From NCBI GenBank assembly GCA_902612345.1, contig CACMDE010000001.1:1-64000 (forward strand): 64,000 nucleotides of DNA, given 5' to 3'. The position numbers and the translations under genes were made by a program. Below, one piece after another: positions 39,652 to 45,186 of this stretch. Every line of letters begins with the position of its first letter. The first letter of the stretch is position 1. This DNA is from an uncultured Pelagibacteraceae bacterium (GTDB taxonomy: Bacteria; Pseudomonadota; Alphaproteobacteria; Pelagibacterales; Pelagibacteraceae). A model generated the notes under the pieces. It worked only from the letters and a program-made list of their open reading frames with translations. It searched no databases and had not been told where the DNA came from.

Positions 39652-39945
39652 TTAGTCAAAATAGCCAAGTCTTATTCCACTATCACTAAAGATATTGCCA
39701 TTACTTGTGTACCCTAAGCTATTTCCATAGTTGTCGTAGATACCATTATTTCTATTGAAATTAAGACTACTATTATCCCAATTTAAAGGACTATTATCCC
39801 AGTTTAGAGAACTATTATCCCAGTTTAGAGAACTATTATCCCAGTTTAATGGACTACAATCCCAACCTAAACAACTAGCTGATGCATATGATATTGCTGT
39901 TAAATTTAATAAAACAGCAATAAATGCAATTTTTAATTTATTCAT
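39652..39945 (-). CDS. Small secreted repeat protein with LNWDNSS heptads
   Basis: Signal peptide MNKLKIAFIAVLLNLTAISYASA then GWDCSPLNWDNSSLNWDNSSLNWDNSPLNWDNSSLNF. Confidence 0.65.
   Translation of the reverse strand: MNKLKIAFIAVLLNLTAISYASASCLGWDCSPLNWDNSSLNWDNSSLNWDNSPLNWDNSSLNFNRNNGIYDNYGNSLGYTSNGNIFSDSGIRLGYFD
39769..39873. repeat. 21-bp tandem repeat, about 5 units
   Basis: Units of actattatcccagtttagaga at 39769, 39790, 39811, 39832, 39853; the units at 39790 and 39811 are identical. Confidence 0.9.
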
Positions 39946-40014
39946 TTTCCTCCTTTGTTGAGATTAAGATAATTATGCTTAAAAATTTTTGTATGTGAAA
40001 AGTGATCGTTAATA

Positions 40015-40058
40015 TTGGACAAATCCATAATTATATAGATTTTATTTGTCTAATTTTT
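40015..40058 (+). promoter_or_regulatory. Inverted repeat followed by T run upstream of CII-like gene (operator or attenuator candidate)
   Basis: ttggacaaat (40015-40024) pairs with atttgtctaa (40044-40053), followed by ttttt. Confidence 0.4.
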
Positions 40059-40081
40059 AAGTTAGAATCTCACTAATAAAA

Positions 40082-40543
40082 ATGGCAAAGCTAAGAGAAA
40101 TTTCATCTATAGAACACGGCTTAACAGAAGCCATAAAAAATCTTAAATCAAAAGTAATTGAAGAAGTAACAGGAAAAAGTGAGTCTTATTTAAGAAAATG
40201 TAGTGATCCTGATTTAGATCAACAACTAGACCACAAAGATGCTGTTAAAATTGATAAAGCGTGTGTCCAAAAAGGATTAACACCATACCTTTTAAGAGCA
40301 CATGAATATATTATTCAAAAAGAGCTTAAAAACGTTGTAACTGACCGAAAAGACTTAAATGAGCTTTTGACAAAATTTACTATTTTACATGGTCAATTAC
40401 TATCAGTTATTAATTCTGCAAAAAGTATCAGTGGTCATAAAGGAGAACAAATTTCATCAGTTGAAAAAAAGGACATTTTTGAAGCTTTTGAAGCGCTAGA
40501 AAATAAAATCCACAAAATTAAAACAACAATTGAAAGCAGCTAA
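40082..40543 (+). CDS. Phage CII-like DNA-binding regulator (predicted)
   Basis: VIEEVTGKSESYLRKCSDPDLDQQLDHKDAVKIDKACVQKGLTPYLLRAH resembles the alphaproteobacterial CII/CP76-type HTH family. Confidence 0.55.
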   Translation: MAKLREISSIEHGLTEAIKNLKSKVIEEVTGKSESYLRKCSDPDLDQQLDHKDAVKIDKACVQKGLTPYLLRAHEYIIQKELKNVVTDRKDLNELLTKFTILHGQLLSVINSAKSISGHKGEQISSVEKKDIFEAFEALENKIHKIKTTIESS

Positions 40544-41226
40544 TGCAACTTCTTTTAGTAACAATACTTCCGTCAATTTTAATTGTTTTATTCTTTGTAA
40601 AATCAGATAGATTTAAAGAACCAACTAAACAGATAGTAAAAGTTTTTTTTCTAGGAATTCTAATTACTATTCCAGCTTATTTTTTAAACACGTATCTAAG
40701 TGAAATTTGGTATGCTACAAATGCCAGCGAAGGACTTATTTCATCATTTCTTACAGCAGCACCAGTAGAAGAAGGTTTAAAATTATCAGTTTTGTATTTC
40801 TTTGTTTATAAAATGAAAGATTTCAATGAGCCTATAGATGGTATTGTTTATGGGGTAACCGTATCACTTGGTTTTGCAACTTTGGAAAATATTTATTATG
40901 TATATCTTCTTGCGGATTATTTTGAAACAACCTCTATGACATTAGCAATATTAAGATCATTTTCTGCAATTCCGGCCCATGCTGTCTTTGGTATATTTAT
41001 GGGTTATTTTTTCATGAAATATGTATTTATAAAAAAAGGTGACAACTTAATTTTTGCATTTCTAGTACCATTTGTTTTACATGGTTGTTATAATTTATTT
41101 ACGTCCTCTAATTTCTTATTTTCACTAATATTGATATTAATTGCATGGATTTTAGCTATACGAATGTTTTCAAGACTTAAAAAAACTCAAAAGACAAAAC
41201 GAAGAGAATATGAAAAAAAGTTATAA
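40543..41226 (+). CDS. PrsW-like intramembrane metalloprotease (CPBP/Abi-related)
   Basis: Multi-TM protein with PVEEGLK (EExxK), TLENIYY, FSAIPAHAVFG and a distal VLHGCYN. Confidence 0.75.
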   Translation: MQLLLVTILPSILIVLFFVKSDRFKEPTKQIVKVFFLGILITIPAYFLNTYLSEIWYATNASEGLISSFLTAAPVEEGLKLSVLYFFVYKMKDFNEPIDGIVYGVTVSLGFATLENIYYVYLLADYFETTSMTLAILRSFSAIPAHAVFGIFMGYFFMKYVFIKKGDNLIFAFLVPFVLHGCYNLFTSSNFLFSLILILIAWILAIRMFSRLKKTQKTKRREYEKKL

Positions 41227-41821
41227 ACTAATAATCTTAATAATAATAAGTTTATTTTTAACTAATTACTCTATTGCCAAGGAGATTAGAACTCGTTTTG
41301 GTTTCTTTATTAATCTACCAAACGAATTTATTGCAATTCAAGATCAAAACCTAGGTGAACTCATGCAAGAATATGAAGGATCAGATATGGATAAAGAATT
41401 TTTCAATGAATTTATGGCAGGGTCTTCAAAAAGTGAAATGAATATTGAATATTATTTCCCTCAAAAAATTGATCCTGAAAGAAACTCAATAAATATAAAT
41501 TATCAAAGAGATACAAGTTTAGATGAAATTATCAAACAAGTTGATTTAGCAACGGAAGTATGTCCTTATTATCTACAAGTTTATAAAGATTTATTTAAAA
41601 AAAATATTAAACAATATTATTGTAAATTTAATAACAATTTAAAATTTAAATATAAGAATATAATTCAAATTAAGCACGATGGACCTTTTAAAGATACGTA
41701 TATGATACAATACCAATTTGATGTTAATAGAAAGATGGTAACATTAACGGTTGGGTGCCAAATTAAACACTGCAAATATATGGAAAATGTTGGAACAAAT
41801 ATAATAAAATCTATAAATTAG
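41210..41821 (+). CDS. Hypothetical secreted protein in channel operon
   Basis: Signal peptide MKKSYKLIILIIISLFLTNYSIA; overlaps PrsW gene by 17 bp and abuts the first channel gene. Confidence 0.65.
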   Translation: MKKSYKLIILIIISLFLTNYSIAKEIRTRFGFFINLPNEFIAIQDQNLGELMQEYEGSDMDKEFFNEFMAGSSKSEMNIEYYFPQKIDPERNSININYQRDTSLDEIIKQVDLATEVCPYYLQVYKDLFKKNIKQYYCKFNNNLKFKYKNIIQIKHDGPFKDTYMIQYQFDVNRKMVTLTVGCQIKHCKYMENVGTNIIKSIN

Positions 41822-43387
41822 ATGAGCTTTAATCCAAAAAATTATTTAAAGAAATTATTTTTAGTTTTACTTTTGATTTCATTTCAAAATATTACTTTTT
41901 CTGAGGAAGGTTTTTATCATGAAGATAAATCTATAGCCTGTTCTAATTTTTATAACGCAATTAAAAATAGTGACAATCCCAGAGTTAAAAACTTATTTCC
42001 AAGATTTATATACAAAGATTATGGTTTTTACATTAAATCTACTACTAATTCTAAAGGTGAATGGATCGCTGTCAAAAACGAAAATGGATACTTATTAGTT
42101 GGCGAAGTATATTCCTATAAAACTCTAGGCAAAATAAATCCTGAAGATATTATAGTTAATATAGAGGGTGAAAGAATAACCTCCCTTGATCAATTTAACT
42201 CAATTATTTTTTCAGATAATATAGAAGAAATTACGATCGATTTAATCAAACCTAATGGTGAAAATTATAGCGCTACAATTAATAATCATTGGAATTCATA
42301 TGCACAAATTGAATATAGCTTAGAGGATATTTATGTCTCAAATATAGATATAAAAACTGGAACTGCTACTTTTGCTGTAAGAGAAGCGTTTCAATACAAT
42401 TATGACAAAGAAAATAATGAAGACGATTATTTACATCCAATATTTTTAATAGCAAAAAAATTTCTTGTTGAACCTGTAGAAGAAGGAGAAGAACCTTTTG
42501 TCCATATTTGTAACCCAACATCTGAGCAATTTAAAAATTCTGGTTTATTAAATCCCTTGAACTCTGATACTCGAAAATTAGTAAAATCAGATAAAGATTT
42601 AATTAAAATAAATCATAAAATAACCACCTATGTTGCACCTTTTCAGAATTATAATAATGTGAGAGTAGAAACTGAAAGAACAAGTATTCAAACAGTTAGA
42701 AATCAATTTAATTTAAGATCTTTTCCATTTGATAAGCAAATTATAAAATACCAATTTGCTGATAGTTCTTTTGAAATTGATAAAAGAATTTTATTTTCTC
42801 AATCATTTACAGATCTTACTTTAGATAATTTTATGAAAGTTGATGATATTTCAGGATGGGATAAAAAAAAATATACTATTAAAAGAATCAAACATAGGGA
42901 CACAGTTAATGTAGAAGGTCAATATAGAGATGGAATAAGCATTGAAATAGAGTTAGAGAGGAAACATGGATATTATATTTTTAAAGTAATTTTACCGATT
43001 ATTTTAATTTTATCAGTATGTTGGTCTGTAGTTTGGGTAGATCCAAGAGAGCTAGAGGCAAGATTAACCATAACTATTGTTTGTTTGCTTTCATTAATTG
43101 CATACAATTTTGTGATTGATGCTGAATTGCCAAAACTGGAATATCTCACAGTTTTAGATTGGATAGTTTTAATTTCTTATTTCTATGCAACTGTACCTAA
43201 TTTTTTGAGTATAATTTCATTTAGACTACAAAAAACCGATTTGAAAATGAGTAATCAACTCGAGATAATTAGCAAAAGGTATGGTCTTTCCTCTTATGTT
43301 TTAAGTATTTTTATAATTGTTTGGATAAATGCTTTTTCAAATCCAGACAACTCAAGTAGCCTTATAAATTGGATGGTTCCTTATTGA
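41822..43387 (+). CDS. Pentameric ligand-gated ion channel subunit (Cys-loop receptor family) with N-terminal PDZ-like domain
   Basis: Signal peptide; PDZ-like LGKINPEDIIVNIEGERITSL; Pro-loop motif RSFPFDKQ; 4 TM with LTITIVCLLSLIAYNFVIDAELPKLEYLTVLDW matching bacterial pLGIC M2-M3. Confidence 0.85.
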   Translation: MSFNPKNYLKKLFLVLLLISFQNITFSEEGFYHEDKSIACSNFYNAIKNSDNPRVKNLFPRFIYKDYGFYIKSTTNSKGEWIAVKNENGYLLVGEVYSYKTLGKINPEDIIVNIEGERITSLDQFNSIIFSDNIEEITIDLIKPNGENYSATINNHWNSYAQIEYSLEDIYVSNIDIKTGTATFAVREAFQYNYDKENNEDDYLHPIFLIAKKFLVEPVEEGEEPFVHICNPTSEQFKNSGLLNPLNSDTRKLVKSDKDLIKINHKITTYVAPFQNYNNVRVETERTSIQTVRNQFNLRSFPFDKQIIKYQFADSSFEIDKRILFSQSFTDLTLDNFMKVDDISGWDKKKYTIKRIKHRDTVNVEGQYRDGISIEIELERKHGYYIFKVILPIILILSVCWSVVWVDPRELEARLTITIVCLLSLIAYNFVIDAELPKLEYLTVLDWIVLISYFYATVPNFLSIISFRLQKTDLKMSNQLEIISKRYGLSSYVLSIFIIVWINAFSNPDNSSSLINWMVPY

Positions 43388-43397
43388 TGAAAATATT

Positions 43398-44939
43398 ATG
43401 AGTAAAAAAAAAAATATAATTTATTTATTATTTTTATATTTAATATTTATTCCTTTTAATGCTGAGTCATCAATGTCTCCAAAATGTTTTGAATTATTTG
43501 ACAAAATAAAAAACTCTAAAGACCCCTTAATTTCCAATTATCAAAATTATGAAAACTCTACATATGGTTTTGATTTAGATATGTTTTTAGCCTTTGATGA
43601 TGAAGGCACACGCGAATGGTTGTTTAAAAGAGATGAAAATAATTATCCTTTAGTAGGAAGGTATACTTCTGAAAGTTTGATAAATAAAATAAAATTTGGA
43701 GATAAAATAATTAGTATTAATGGCCAAGAATTAAATTTATTAAATGACGATGAATTATCAGATTTATTTCTTGTTACAGAAAATAACGAAAATATTGTTT
43801 CAAATATTGTATTTGAAAGAAATAAAGAAAAATTCGATTTTGATCTTAAAATAATACTTGAGTATCAACAAGATGATCTAATTCAATTTTATATATCAAA
43901 TATAAGTGAGATCTCACAAATAAAATCTACTTTTAAAGCTGACATTTATTTAGAAACGTCGGTAGATTATGATTATGAAACAGATTCACTTCCACTTGGA
44001 AAATTAATTTTTGATACTTTGGTCTATAAAAACGAAAAAGATGAATGGGACTGGCAACAATGCGATTGGATTCCTGAGGAAAAAATAATTGAATATAATA
44101 TTCCCGATCCTTCGCATGAATTAGCTTTTTTTAATGCTGTTAATATTAATAAAAATACCCAAATCAAAAATATAAGCATATATCCTTGGTCAGAAAAAAT
44201 CGGAGATGATGTAGATTATGATTATTCAACAGTTGATTCTTATACAAGGGGAACATTTGAATTTAAAAATGACTTTGATTTAAAAACATTTCCGTTTGAT
44301 AAACAAAAACTAATTTTTCAAATTGCATACGAAAATGATTTAGATGAGTATTTGATAGATTACGAAAAAGATACAGTTAAAGGTTTAGAATTTGCTGCAC
44401 AAAATATAAATATAAGTGGATGGAATATTGTAAAGCATGATATTAAAAATATTGTTTATAAAGGTCCAACAGGGGATAATTTCAGTGGAATCGAAGTTTC
44501 TTTAGAAATTGAGAGAAAAACTGGATATTATATTTATAAAGTAATTATACCGATATTACTAATATTGCTTGTTTGTTGGTCGGTAGTATGGATTGATGCT
44601 GAAGAATTAGAGTCAAAACTTACAATTACAATTGTATGTTTACTATCACTTATAGCCTATAACTTTGTTATTGATAAAGAGCTTCCAAAATTAGAATATC
44701 TCACAGTCCTTGATTGGATAATATTGGTATCTTATGTTTACGCTACAATACCAAACTTTTTAAGTATAATAACCTTTAAATTATATAAAAAGAAAAATAA
44801 GATAAAGATTAATAAAATAAATTATTTAAGCAAAGTTTTTGGTCCTACATCATATTTAGTAATAATATTTTCAATAATAATCATAAATGTAAATAAATAT
44901 CCTGATACATCAGGTAAATTAATTGCTTGGATGTCATAA
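43398..44939 (+). CDS. Pentameric ligand-gated ion channel subunit with N-terminal PDZ-like domain, paralog of preceding gene
   Basis: PDZ-like INKIKFGDKIISINGQELNLL; KTFPFDKQ; LTITIVCLLSLIAYNFVIDKELPKLEYLTVLDW; 4 TM. Confidence 0.85.
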   Translation: MSKKKNIIYLLFLYLIFIPFNAESSMSPKCFELFDKIKNSKDPLISNYQNYENSTYGFDLDMFLAFDDEGTREWLFKRDENNYPLVGRYTSESLINKIKFGDKIISINGQELNLLNDDELSDLFLVTENNENIVSNIVFERNKEKFDFDLKIILEYQQDDLIQFYISNISEISQIKSTFKADIYLETSVDYDYETDSLPLGKLIFDTLVYKNEKDEWDWQQCDWIPEEKIIEYNIPDPSHELAFFNAVNINKNTQIKNISIYPWSEKIGDDVDYDYSTVDSYTRGTFEFKNDFDLKTFPFDKQKLIFQIAYENDLDEYLIDYEKDTVKGLEFAAQNINISGWNIVKHDIKNIVYKGPTGDNFSGIEVSLEIERKTGYYIYKVIIPILLILLVCWSVVWIDAEELESKLTITIVCLLSLIAYNFVIDKELPKLEYLTVLDWIILVSYVYATIPNFLSIITFKLYKKKNKIKINKINYLSKVFGPTSYLVIIFSIIIINVNKYPDTSGKLIAWMS

Positions 44940-45008
44940 AATATAATTGTCCAAAGTAAATCATTCTATTTCACAGGAAATTTTACAATCTAATTCATAT
45001 ATTAATTC

Positions 45009-45031
45009 TGTAAGGCAAAAAGCTTTACAGA
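45009..45031 (+). promoter_or_regulatory. 9-bp hairpin just upstream of 47-aa ORF
   Basis: ctgtaaggc-aaaaa-gctttacag with one G.U pair. Confidence 0.5.
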
Positions 45032-45042
45032 AAGGATAAAAG

Positions 45043-45186
45043 ATGACTTTGAAGCAATATTTAATAGCTGGTGTAATAGAGCAAGCTATAGTTCTAGGAG
45101 TGATTTTACCAGCTACAGGATGGTGGTTTAGCTTTTTTGCTCTAACTGCTGTTTGGAACTTAGTTGCTGGTGGATTTGGCAAGTAA
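45043..45186 (+). CDS. 47-aa hydrophobic small protein
   Basis: MTLKQYLIAGVIEQAIVLGVILPATGWWFSFFALTAVWNLVAGGFGK; aaaggataaaag purine-rich RBS-like stretch upstream; below the ORF track cutoff. Confidence 0.5.
   Translation: MTLKQYLIAGVIEQAIVLGVILPATGWWFSFFALTAVWNLVAGGFGK

Follow-up and report, generated by a model that had tools for sequence, protein, structure and literature searches.

A recurrent SAR11 locus linking PDZ-bearing ligand-gated channels with a PrsW-family protease and a CII-like regulator

The locus described here lies in a window of 64,000 nucleotides (positions 1-64,000, forward strand, of contig CACMDE010000001.1 in assembly GCA_902612345.1) from an uncultured Pelagibacteraceae bacterium. 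It brings together two channels of the pentameric ligand-gated family (pLGIC) that carry a PDZ domain, an intramembrane protease of the PrsW family and a regulator whose modelled fold is matched by phage 186 CII; across relatives this linkage is conserved, as is a putative operator private to the locus, while the receptor portion of the channels varies strongly. Gene content points to a signalling role, and the locus suggests an undescribed bacterial route from outside signal to gene expression. The best explanation, which we put forward tentatively, is a receptor-controlled intramembrane-proteolysis switch from signal to transcription, with swappable receptors.

Every part belongs to families already known from intramembrane-proteolysis signalling or from pLGIC operons, and we know of no described system that combines the channel, PrsW and a CII-like regulator. 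The open-access literature, which leaves most subscription papers outside the search, yielded nothing joining pLGICs with PrsW or with SAR11 signalling. Human neurotransmitter receptors are modelled on bacterial pLGIC structures, and the natural role of bacterial pLGICs is largely unknown; the conserved locus gives them concrete partners (protease, regulator, operator and small secreted peptides) as well as candidate ligands. SAR11, which rank with Earth's most abundant bacteria, are known for a sparse regulatory repertoire, so a signalling locus that recurs and diversifies its receptors would be unexpected in them.

Gene content of the locus

The five open reading frames that the initial annotation placed at 40082-44939 are all present at those coordinates, with the junctions it described: one shared base at 40543 (TAATG), a 17-bp overlap at 41210-41226, abutment at 41821/41822 and a 10-bp gap before 43398. 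No terminator-like site was found on the coding strand between the genes. The assigned identities (CII-like, PrsW, secreted protein, two pLGICs) hold by profile, PDB sequence match and fold. The boundaries were drawn too narrowly, and we extend the locus to 39652-45186 (Table 1); the operator, the divergent secreted peptide gene, the 47-aa membrane protein gene and the N-terminal PDZ domain of the channels are all additions to that annotation.

Table 1. Features of the locus, in window coordinates
Feature	Position	Strand	Basis or remarks
Divergent small secreted peptide gene, 97 aa	39652..39945	-	Signal peptide, WDNS repeats, weakly beta-flower-like C-terminus
Predicted promoter of secreted peptide gene, TTCACA-16-CATAAT	39972..39999	-	10/12 consensus matches
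Half-site motif TTGTCCAA-N14-TTTCACA, pointing at secreted peptide gene	39994..40022	-	Motif scan
Inverted-repeat putative operator TTGGACAAA-N21-TTTGTCTAA	40015..40053	+	Exact spacing kept in relatives; unique in own genome
Weak -35 of operon, TTTTAT	40040-40045	+	Read from sequence
Probable -10 of operon, TAGAAT	40063..40068	+	Inferred from sequence and conservation
CII-like regulator (CP76/phage 186 CII fold), 153 aa	40082..40543	+	Profile, model, fold match
PrsW-family glutamic-type intramembrane protease, 227 aa	40543..41226	+	Profiles; conserved E76, E77, E115, H146, H180
Secreted protein, accessory, 203 aa	41210..41821	+	No recognised family; also in L053, L055, L060
PDZ-pLGIC channel 1, 521 aa	41822..43387	+	Signal peptide, PDZ ~88-160, ligand-binding domain with FPFD loop, 4 TM
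PDZ-pLGIC channel 2, 513 aa	43398..44939	+	39% identity to channel 1
Half-site motif TTGTCCAA-N14-TTTCACA, pointing at 47-aa membrane protein gene	44947..44975	+	Motif scan
Small membrane protein (MTLKQYLIAGVIEQ...), 47 aa	45043..45186	+	In 3/121 genomes

Channels 1 and 2 matched NF033918 with E 3e-28 and 8e-31, below that model's full-length cut-off, and their PDB sequence matches were ELIC and GLIC. They have a ligand-binding domain, four transmembrane helices, the invariant FP-D and pore residues, and a modelled fold (AlphaFold pLDDT 71) whose best matches are DeCLIC, sTeLIC, GLIC and GABA-A receptors; by family they are pentameric ligand-gated ion channels, predicted to conduct as pentamers. 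The pore glutamate E412 is nearly invariant and aligns by eye with the cation-filter glutamate of GLIC, which suggests that the pore is cation-selective. The N-terminal PDZ is carried by the long channels; its profile found the PDZ tandem of the Aquifex RseP homologue as best PDB match (E 8.6e-11), followed by DegP and PSD-95, and the Pfam PDZ model was matched weakly by 5 of 14 channels.

The prokaryotic pLGICs GLIC, ELIC, sTeLIC and DeCLIC likewise have the ligand-binding domain with FPFD loop and the four-TM pore, and DeCLIC, the best fold match, also has an additional N-terminal domain; here, however, that additional domain is a PDZ, and the channel gene has PrsW and CII-like genes as its linked partners. 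The presence of pLGICs in Pelagibacter has already been noted (PMC4795631). The partners found in earlier surveys were only PBP-I, PBP-II, Cache and MCP-N, and the gene neighbourhoods described went no further than PBP-II, Cache and one symporter (PMC549065). Two further kinds of channel neighbourhood were seen: (i) a divergent 679-aa channel homologue (L046:5382-7421, genome G021), whose large N-terminal region looks PBP-like by eye, lies near a CII-like gene; (ii) a TerB gene and two membrane/coiled-coil genes recur beside a channel or PrsW (L038, L039, L040, L047, L050, L143), the coiled-coil proteins giving weak LmuB/ZorA-like PADLOC matches.

The protease fits the PrsW family profile PF13367 (E 5e-36, 124.5 bits, cut-off 23.5), and E76, E77, E115, H146 and H180 are invariant in 13 sequences; with NF033739 it scored 140.9 bits (E 4.5e-41), under the cut-off of 225 for a Bacillus PrsW equivalog. 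In Bacillus, PrsW-RsiW-SigW carries a membrane signal to transcription. That system has the protease family in common with the window locus, from which a sigma/anti-sigma pair is absent and whose PrsW falls below the NCBIfam equivalog cut-off; nothing points specifically to the envelope stress that the initial annotation had proposed. Adjacent genes for an HTH regulator and a protease, as here, control the local operon in ImmR-ImmA and CapH-CapP, whose proteases are soluble metallopeptidases, whereas the protease here is intramembrane and tied to a channel.

With Pfam CP76 the CII-like protein scored 25.3 bits (E 1.5e-5) against a gathering cut-off of 26, and 21 of 39 CII-like homologues matched at E 0.01 or better, the best at 3.4e-7. 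All seven best PDB fold matches of its model (pLDDT 81) were phage 186 CII (E from 0.017, TM ~0.38), which gives moderate support to a predicted 186 CII fold; the CII-like profile gave no alignment with the single 186 CII sequence. A phage origin of the gene was rejected, as relatives of the CII-like protein or the channel were not found in viral contigs. CII-like genes without a PDZ-channel lie near the same small lipoprotein genes in L044, L045, L046 and L047, with PD-(D/E)XK-type genes in three of them.

Linkage among relatives

The closest relatives of the locus are in Pelagibacteraceae single-cell genomes; one of them (L053) keeps all five genes in identical order, and its channel 1 is 91% identical to that of the window. 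The five genes are nevertheless no fixed unit: the 203-aa secreted protein is found in 4 module loci in all and has one weak match elsewhere among 121 related genomes, a rarity that rules it out as a core component, and channel 2 is an additional copy. What recurs as a core is a PDZ-channel accompanied by a CII-like gene and/or PrsW, joined in operon-type loci by the operator, and the window's five genes are one local version of this core. The earlier proposal of one genetic system stands for the channel, the intramembrane protease and the DNA-binding regulator, which co-occur and re-associate in many arrangements, and is not supported for the five genes as a set.

In the set of 121 relatives, which is phylogenetically non-independent and includes many incomplete genomes, 12 carry the channel, 14 PrsW and 10 the CII-like gene. 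With kinship among genomes ignored, channel and PrsW co-occur with a Fisher p of 1.4e-6, and channel and CII-like gene with p 4e-5. The neighbourhood comparison called for earlier thus finds orthologs together elsewhere; the accompanying concern, that PrsW and CII-like genes might mostly lack channels, is not borne out, a channel being present in 8 of the 14 PrsW carriers and 6 of the 10 CII carriers (7 if the divergent G021 channel is counted).

A scan of genome contigs seeded with the channel alignment alone gave 76 loci, in which partners were sought within 4 kb by profile searches on called ORFs. A CII-like gene was found near 54, PrsW near 48, either near 70 and both near 32; of the six loci with neither, two lie on short contigs. 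By contrast, ordinary pLGIC control loci from the class and the phylum had CII or PrsW neighbours in 0/35, and on a comparable short-flank measure the figures are 65/76 for channel loci and 0/35 for controls. Approximately eight arrangements were distinguished: (i) CII>PrsW>channel; (ii) CII divergent from the channel; (iii) PrsW>channel; (iv) channel converging on PrsW; (v) channel>PrsW; (vi) CII>channel>PrsW; (vii) PrsW>,<CII,channel>; and (viii) CII>channel. When partner labels are placed on a tree built from the channel membrane regions, supported branches show no fewer than 10 switches. Operons of the CII>channel type extend to two genomes that do not belong to the window's order (L144, L145), and the PrsW>channel arrangement was seen in a contig of SAR86 and in two uncultured Alphaproteobacteria (L110, L090, L099).

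Could the genes be functionally unrelated and merely share a genomic hotspot? Several operon-type relatives do occupy the same lpd-priA interval, so one insertion site accounts for part of the linkage. Yet the same partners are also found together elsewhere in the genome, as well as in a second SAR11 family, in other Alphaproteobacteria and in SAR86, and the many arrangements, the repeated changes on the channel tree and the common private operator likewise speak against a hotspot. With the 35 control loci and the repeated re-arrangements we reject chance or hotspot linkage, and consider this reading very improbable and already largely refuted.

At many loci the channel is found with CII and no PrsW, or with PrsW and no full-score CII in the contig stretch examined, so the whole relay is not carried by every locus; neither partner is near four long-channel loci, which counts against our best explanation. 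PrsW beside channels where no full-score CII-like gene was seen would also suit a role for the protease in quality control, with the channel or the small exported proteins, and not the regulator, as what it processes or degrades. We think this improbable, given the tandem arrangement of CII and PrsW, which is conserved and, judging from the 1-bp overlap, translationally coupled, and given the precedent of 186 CII.

Control region, exported peptides and receptor divergence

Most operon-type loci carry an inverted repeat, TTGGACAAA-N21-TTTGTCCAA, at identical spacing and ~24-31 bp upstream of the CII start codon, and in most of them TGTGAAA lies 14 bp upstream of the repeat. The repeat occurs once in the window's own 1.07-Mb genome and, among same-genus relatives, in only the three genomes with a CII>PrsW operon; perfect copies also precede a channel (L081) and genes for small secreted or membrane proteins (L089, L116, L118). 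By inspection, a repeat centred near -41 together with a weak -35 would fit an activator. Operator matches in nine genomes of another SAR11 family proved to be one shared conserved sequence, judged unrelated and perhaps coding, and those in L111 and L128 resemble terminator hairpins.

Both perfect copies of the half-site in the own genome flank the locus, one before the divergent secreted peptide gene and one before the 47-aa membrane protein gene. At the N14 spacing there are 39 matches in ~1 Mb of related loci and 1 in reversed controls; five of the 39 (L105, L120, L123, L126, L127) are one conserved site without a small target gene, and nearly all others precede small secreted peptides or small membrane proteins. 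The first hexamer of the secreted-peptide promoter falls in an invariant ATGTGAAA block. Between operator and secreted peptide gene, a conserved ORF of ~28 aa, often ending KPYRKEDV, is seen in L061, L062, L065, L072, L080 and L088, possibly a leader peptide upstream of CII.

A divergent small secreted peptide ORF lies upstream of CII, at similar distance, in most operon-type relatives, and the peptides differ greatly in sequence between loci. No Pfam families were recognised in them, the 97-aa peptide of the window reaching E 0.0042 with PF21785, below cut-off. The three genomes with the 47-aa membrane protein are all module carriers, and its gene is always ~100 bp from a module gene. The L089 peptide has its sole relative in the 121 genomes directly 3' of PrsW, in the G084 module of another family. 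Secreted peptides with four cysteines and mature parts of ~22 residues (such as CTTSCYGNSCTTYC), a small disulfide-peptide pattern, were seen in L053-L055, L060, L067 and L074; in L067 two further half-sites (13081 and 13400) lie far from the channel, the first followed by a four-cysteine peptide gene.

The receptors diverge far more than their neighbours. In pairwise comparison of 18 operon-type loci, CII has a median identity of 73% and PrsW of 68%, against 64% in the membrane region of the channel and 23% in its ectodomain, and in some locus pairs CII is 95-96% identical and the ectodomain 23-25%. Ectodomains of pLGICs are generally more variable than pores; the discordance with neighbouring genes points to receptor exchange.

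Strongly variable peptides and ectodomains, conserved CII and PrsW and apparent receptor exchange would also be expected of a locus for competition or self-recognition, in which the peptides act on neighbouring cells, the channels are receptors or targets, PrsW and the small membrane protein provide immunity or processing, and the CII-like gene only controls expression. The presence of the small membrane protein under the same motif fits as well, and CPBP-type membrane proteases, related to PrsW, serve bacteriocin immunity. Against this, no secretion or toxin family was recognised, the peptides are without Pfam families, and SAR11 are, to our knowledge, not known for bacteriocins; PADLOC defence-system models gave no match with the five genes at E 0.1, on which ground defence-system membership was rejected. 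We regard the competition reading as unlikely.

A possible relay from channel to regulator

In the proteolytic switch that we favour, the PDZ-pLGIC would sit in the inner membrane and sense a periplasmic ligand through its fast-changing ectodomain, candidate ligands being peptide termini bound by the PDZ and possibly the locus's own small secreted peptides. The state of the channel, through ion entry or direct contact, would control the adjacent PrsW, which would clip or release the CII-like regulator, much as phage 186 CII is clipped by RseP. The regulator may then bind the TTGGACAAA/TTTGTCCAA sites and so control its own operon, the divergent secreted peptide and the 47-aa membrane protein.

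Phage 186 CII is degraded by FtsH and RseP; loss of RseP abolishes one specific degradation product, and its removal did not measurably slow the loss of full-length 186 CII (PMC7708051). A PDZ, an intramembrane protease and a 186-CII-type regulator are common to that case and the window locus, but here the PDZ is on the channel and not the protease, the protease is PrsW (glutamic type) and not a zinc site-2 protease, and the regulator is a chromosomal neighbour and not a phage protein. Since the channel PDZ is closest to an RseP homologue, the regulator has a predicted 186 CII fold and RseP degrades 186 CII, the RseP-CII elements appear to be encoded here in adjacent genes; the resemblance is a parallel, not a demonstration. 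By eye the CII-like protein has no membrane segment, so the case for a soluble PrsW substrate is the 186 CII parallel; this, and the undiminished loss of full-length 186 CII when RseP is removed, count against the relay.

A more specific form of the switch is somewhat unlikely in our judgement: a PDZ-carrying relative of nicotinic and GABA receptors, tuned to the fast-evolving peptides of its own locus, would act through an intramembrane protease on a regulator of the phage-CII type, and in SAR11 receptor and peptide would be exchanged as cassettes. If true, such peptide sensing would be a case of a receptor channel coupled to transcription in bacteria.

In 12 loci (L056, L058, L059, L060, L062, L077, L079, L082, L088, L093, L094, L100) a short channel of ~400 aa, lacking a PDZ, is directly preceded by the gene for a flavin amine oxidase (PF01593) with a twin-arginine leader; these short channels group in a single clade. 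This pairing favours small-molecule chemoreception, a reading in which the channels detect amines or other solutes, the output is ion flux and nothing else, and PrsW and CII only tune channel abundance; primary amines gate ELIC (PMC3119659), and earlier pLGIC neighbourhoods pointed to chemoreception (PMC549065). We consider it quite unlikely for the window locus, which has no amine oxidase and whose channels carry a PDZ domain, and it leaves unexplained the small secreted peptides under the same motif. For the short-channel loci themselves, ELIC-like amine gating with a ligand-removing enzyme is a testable idea.
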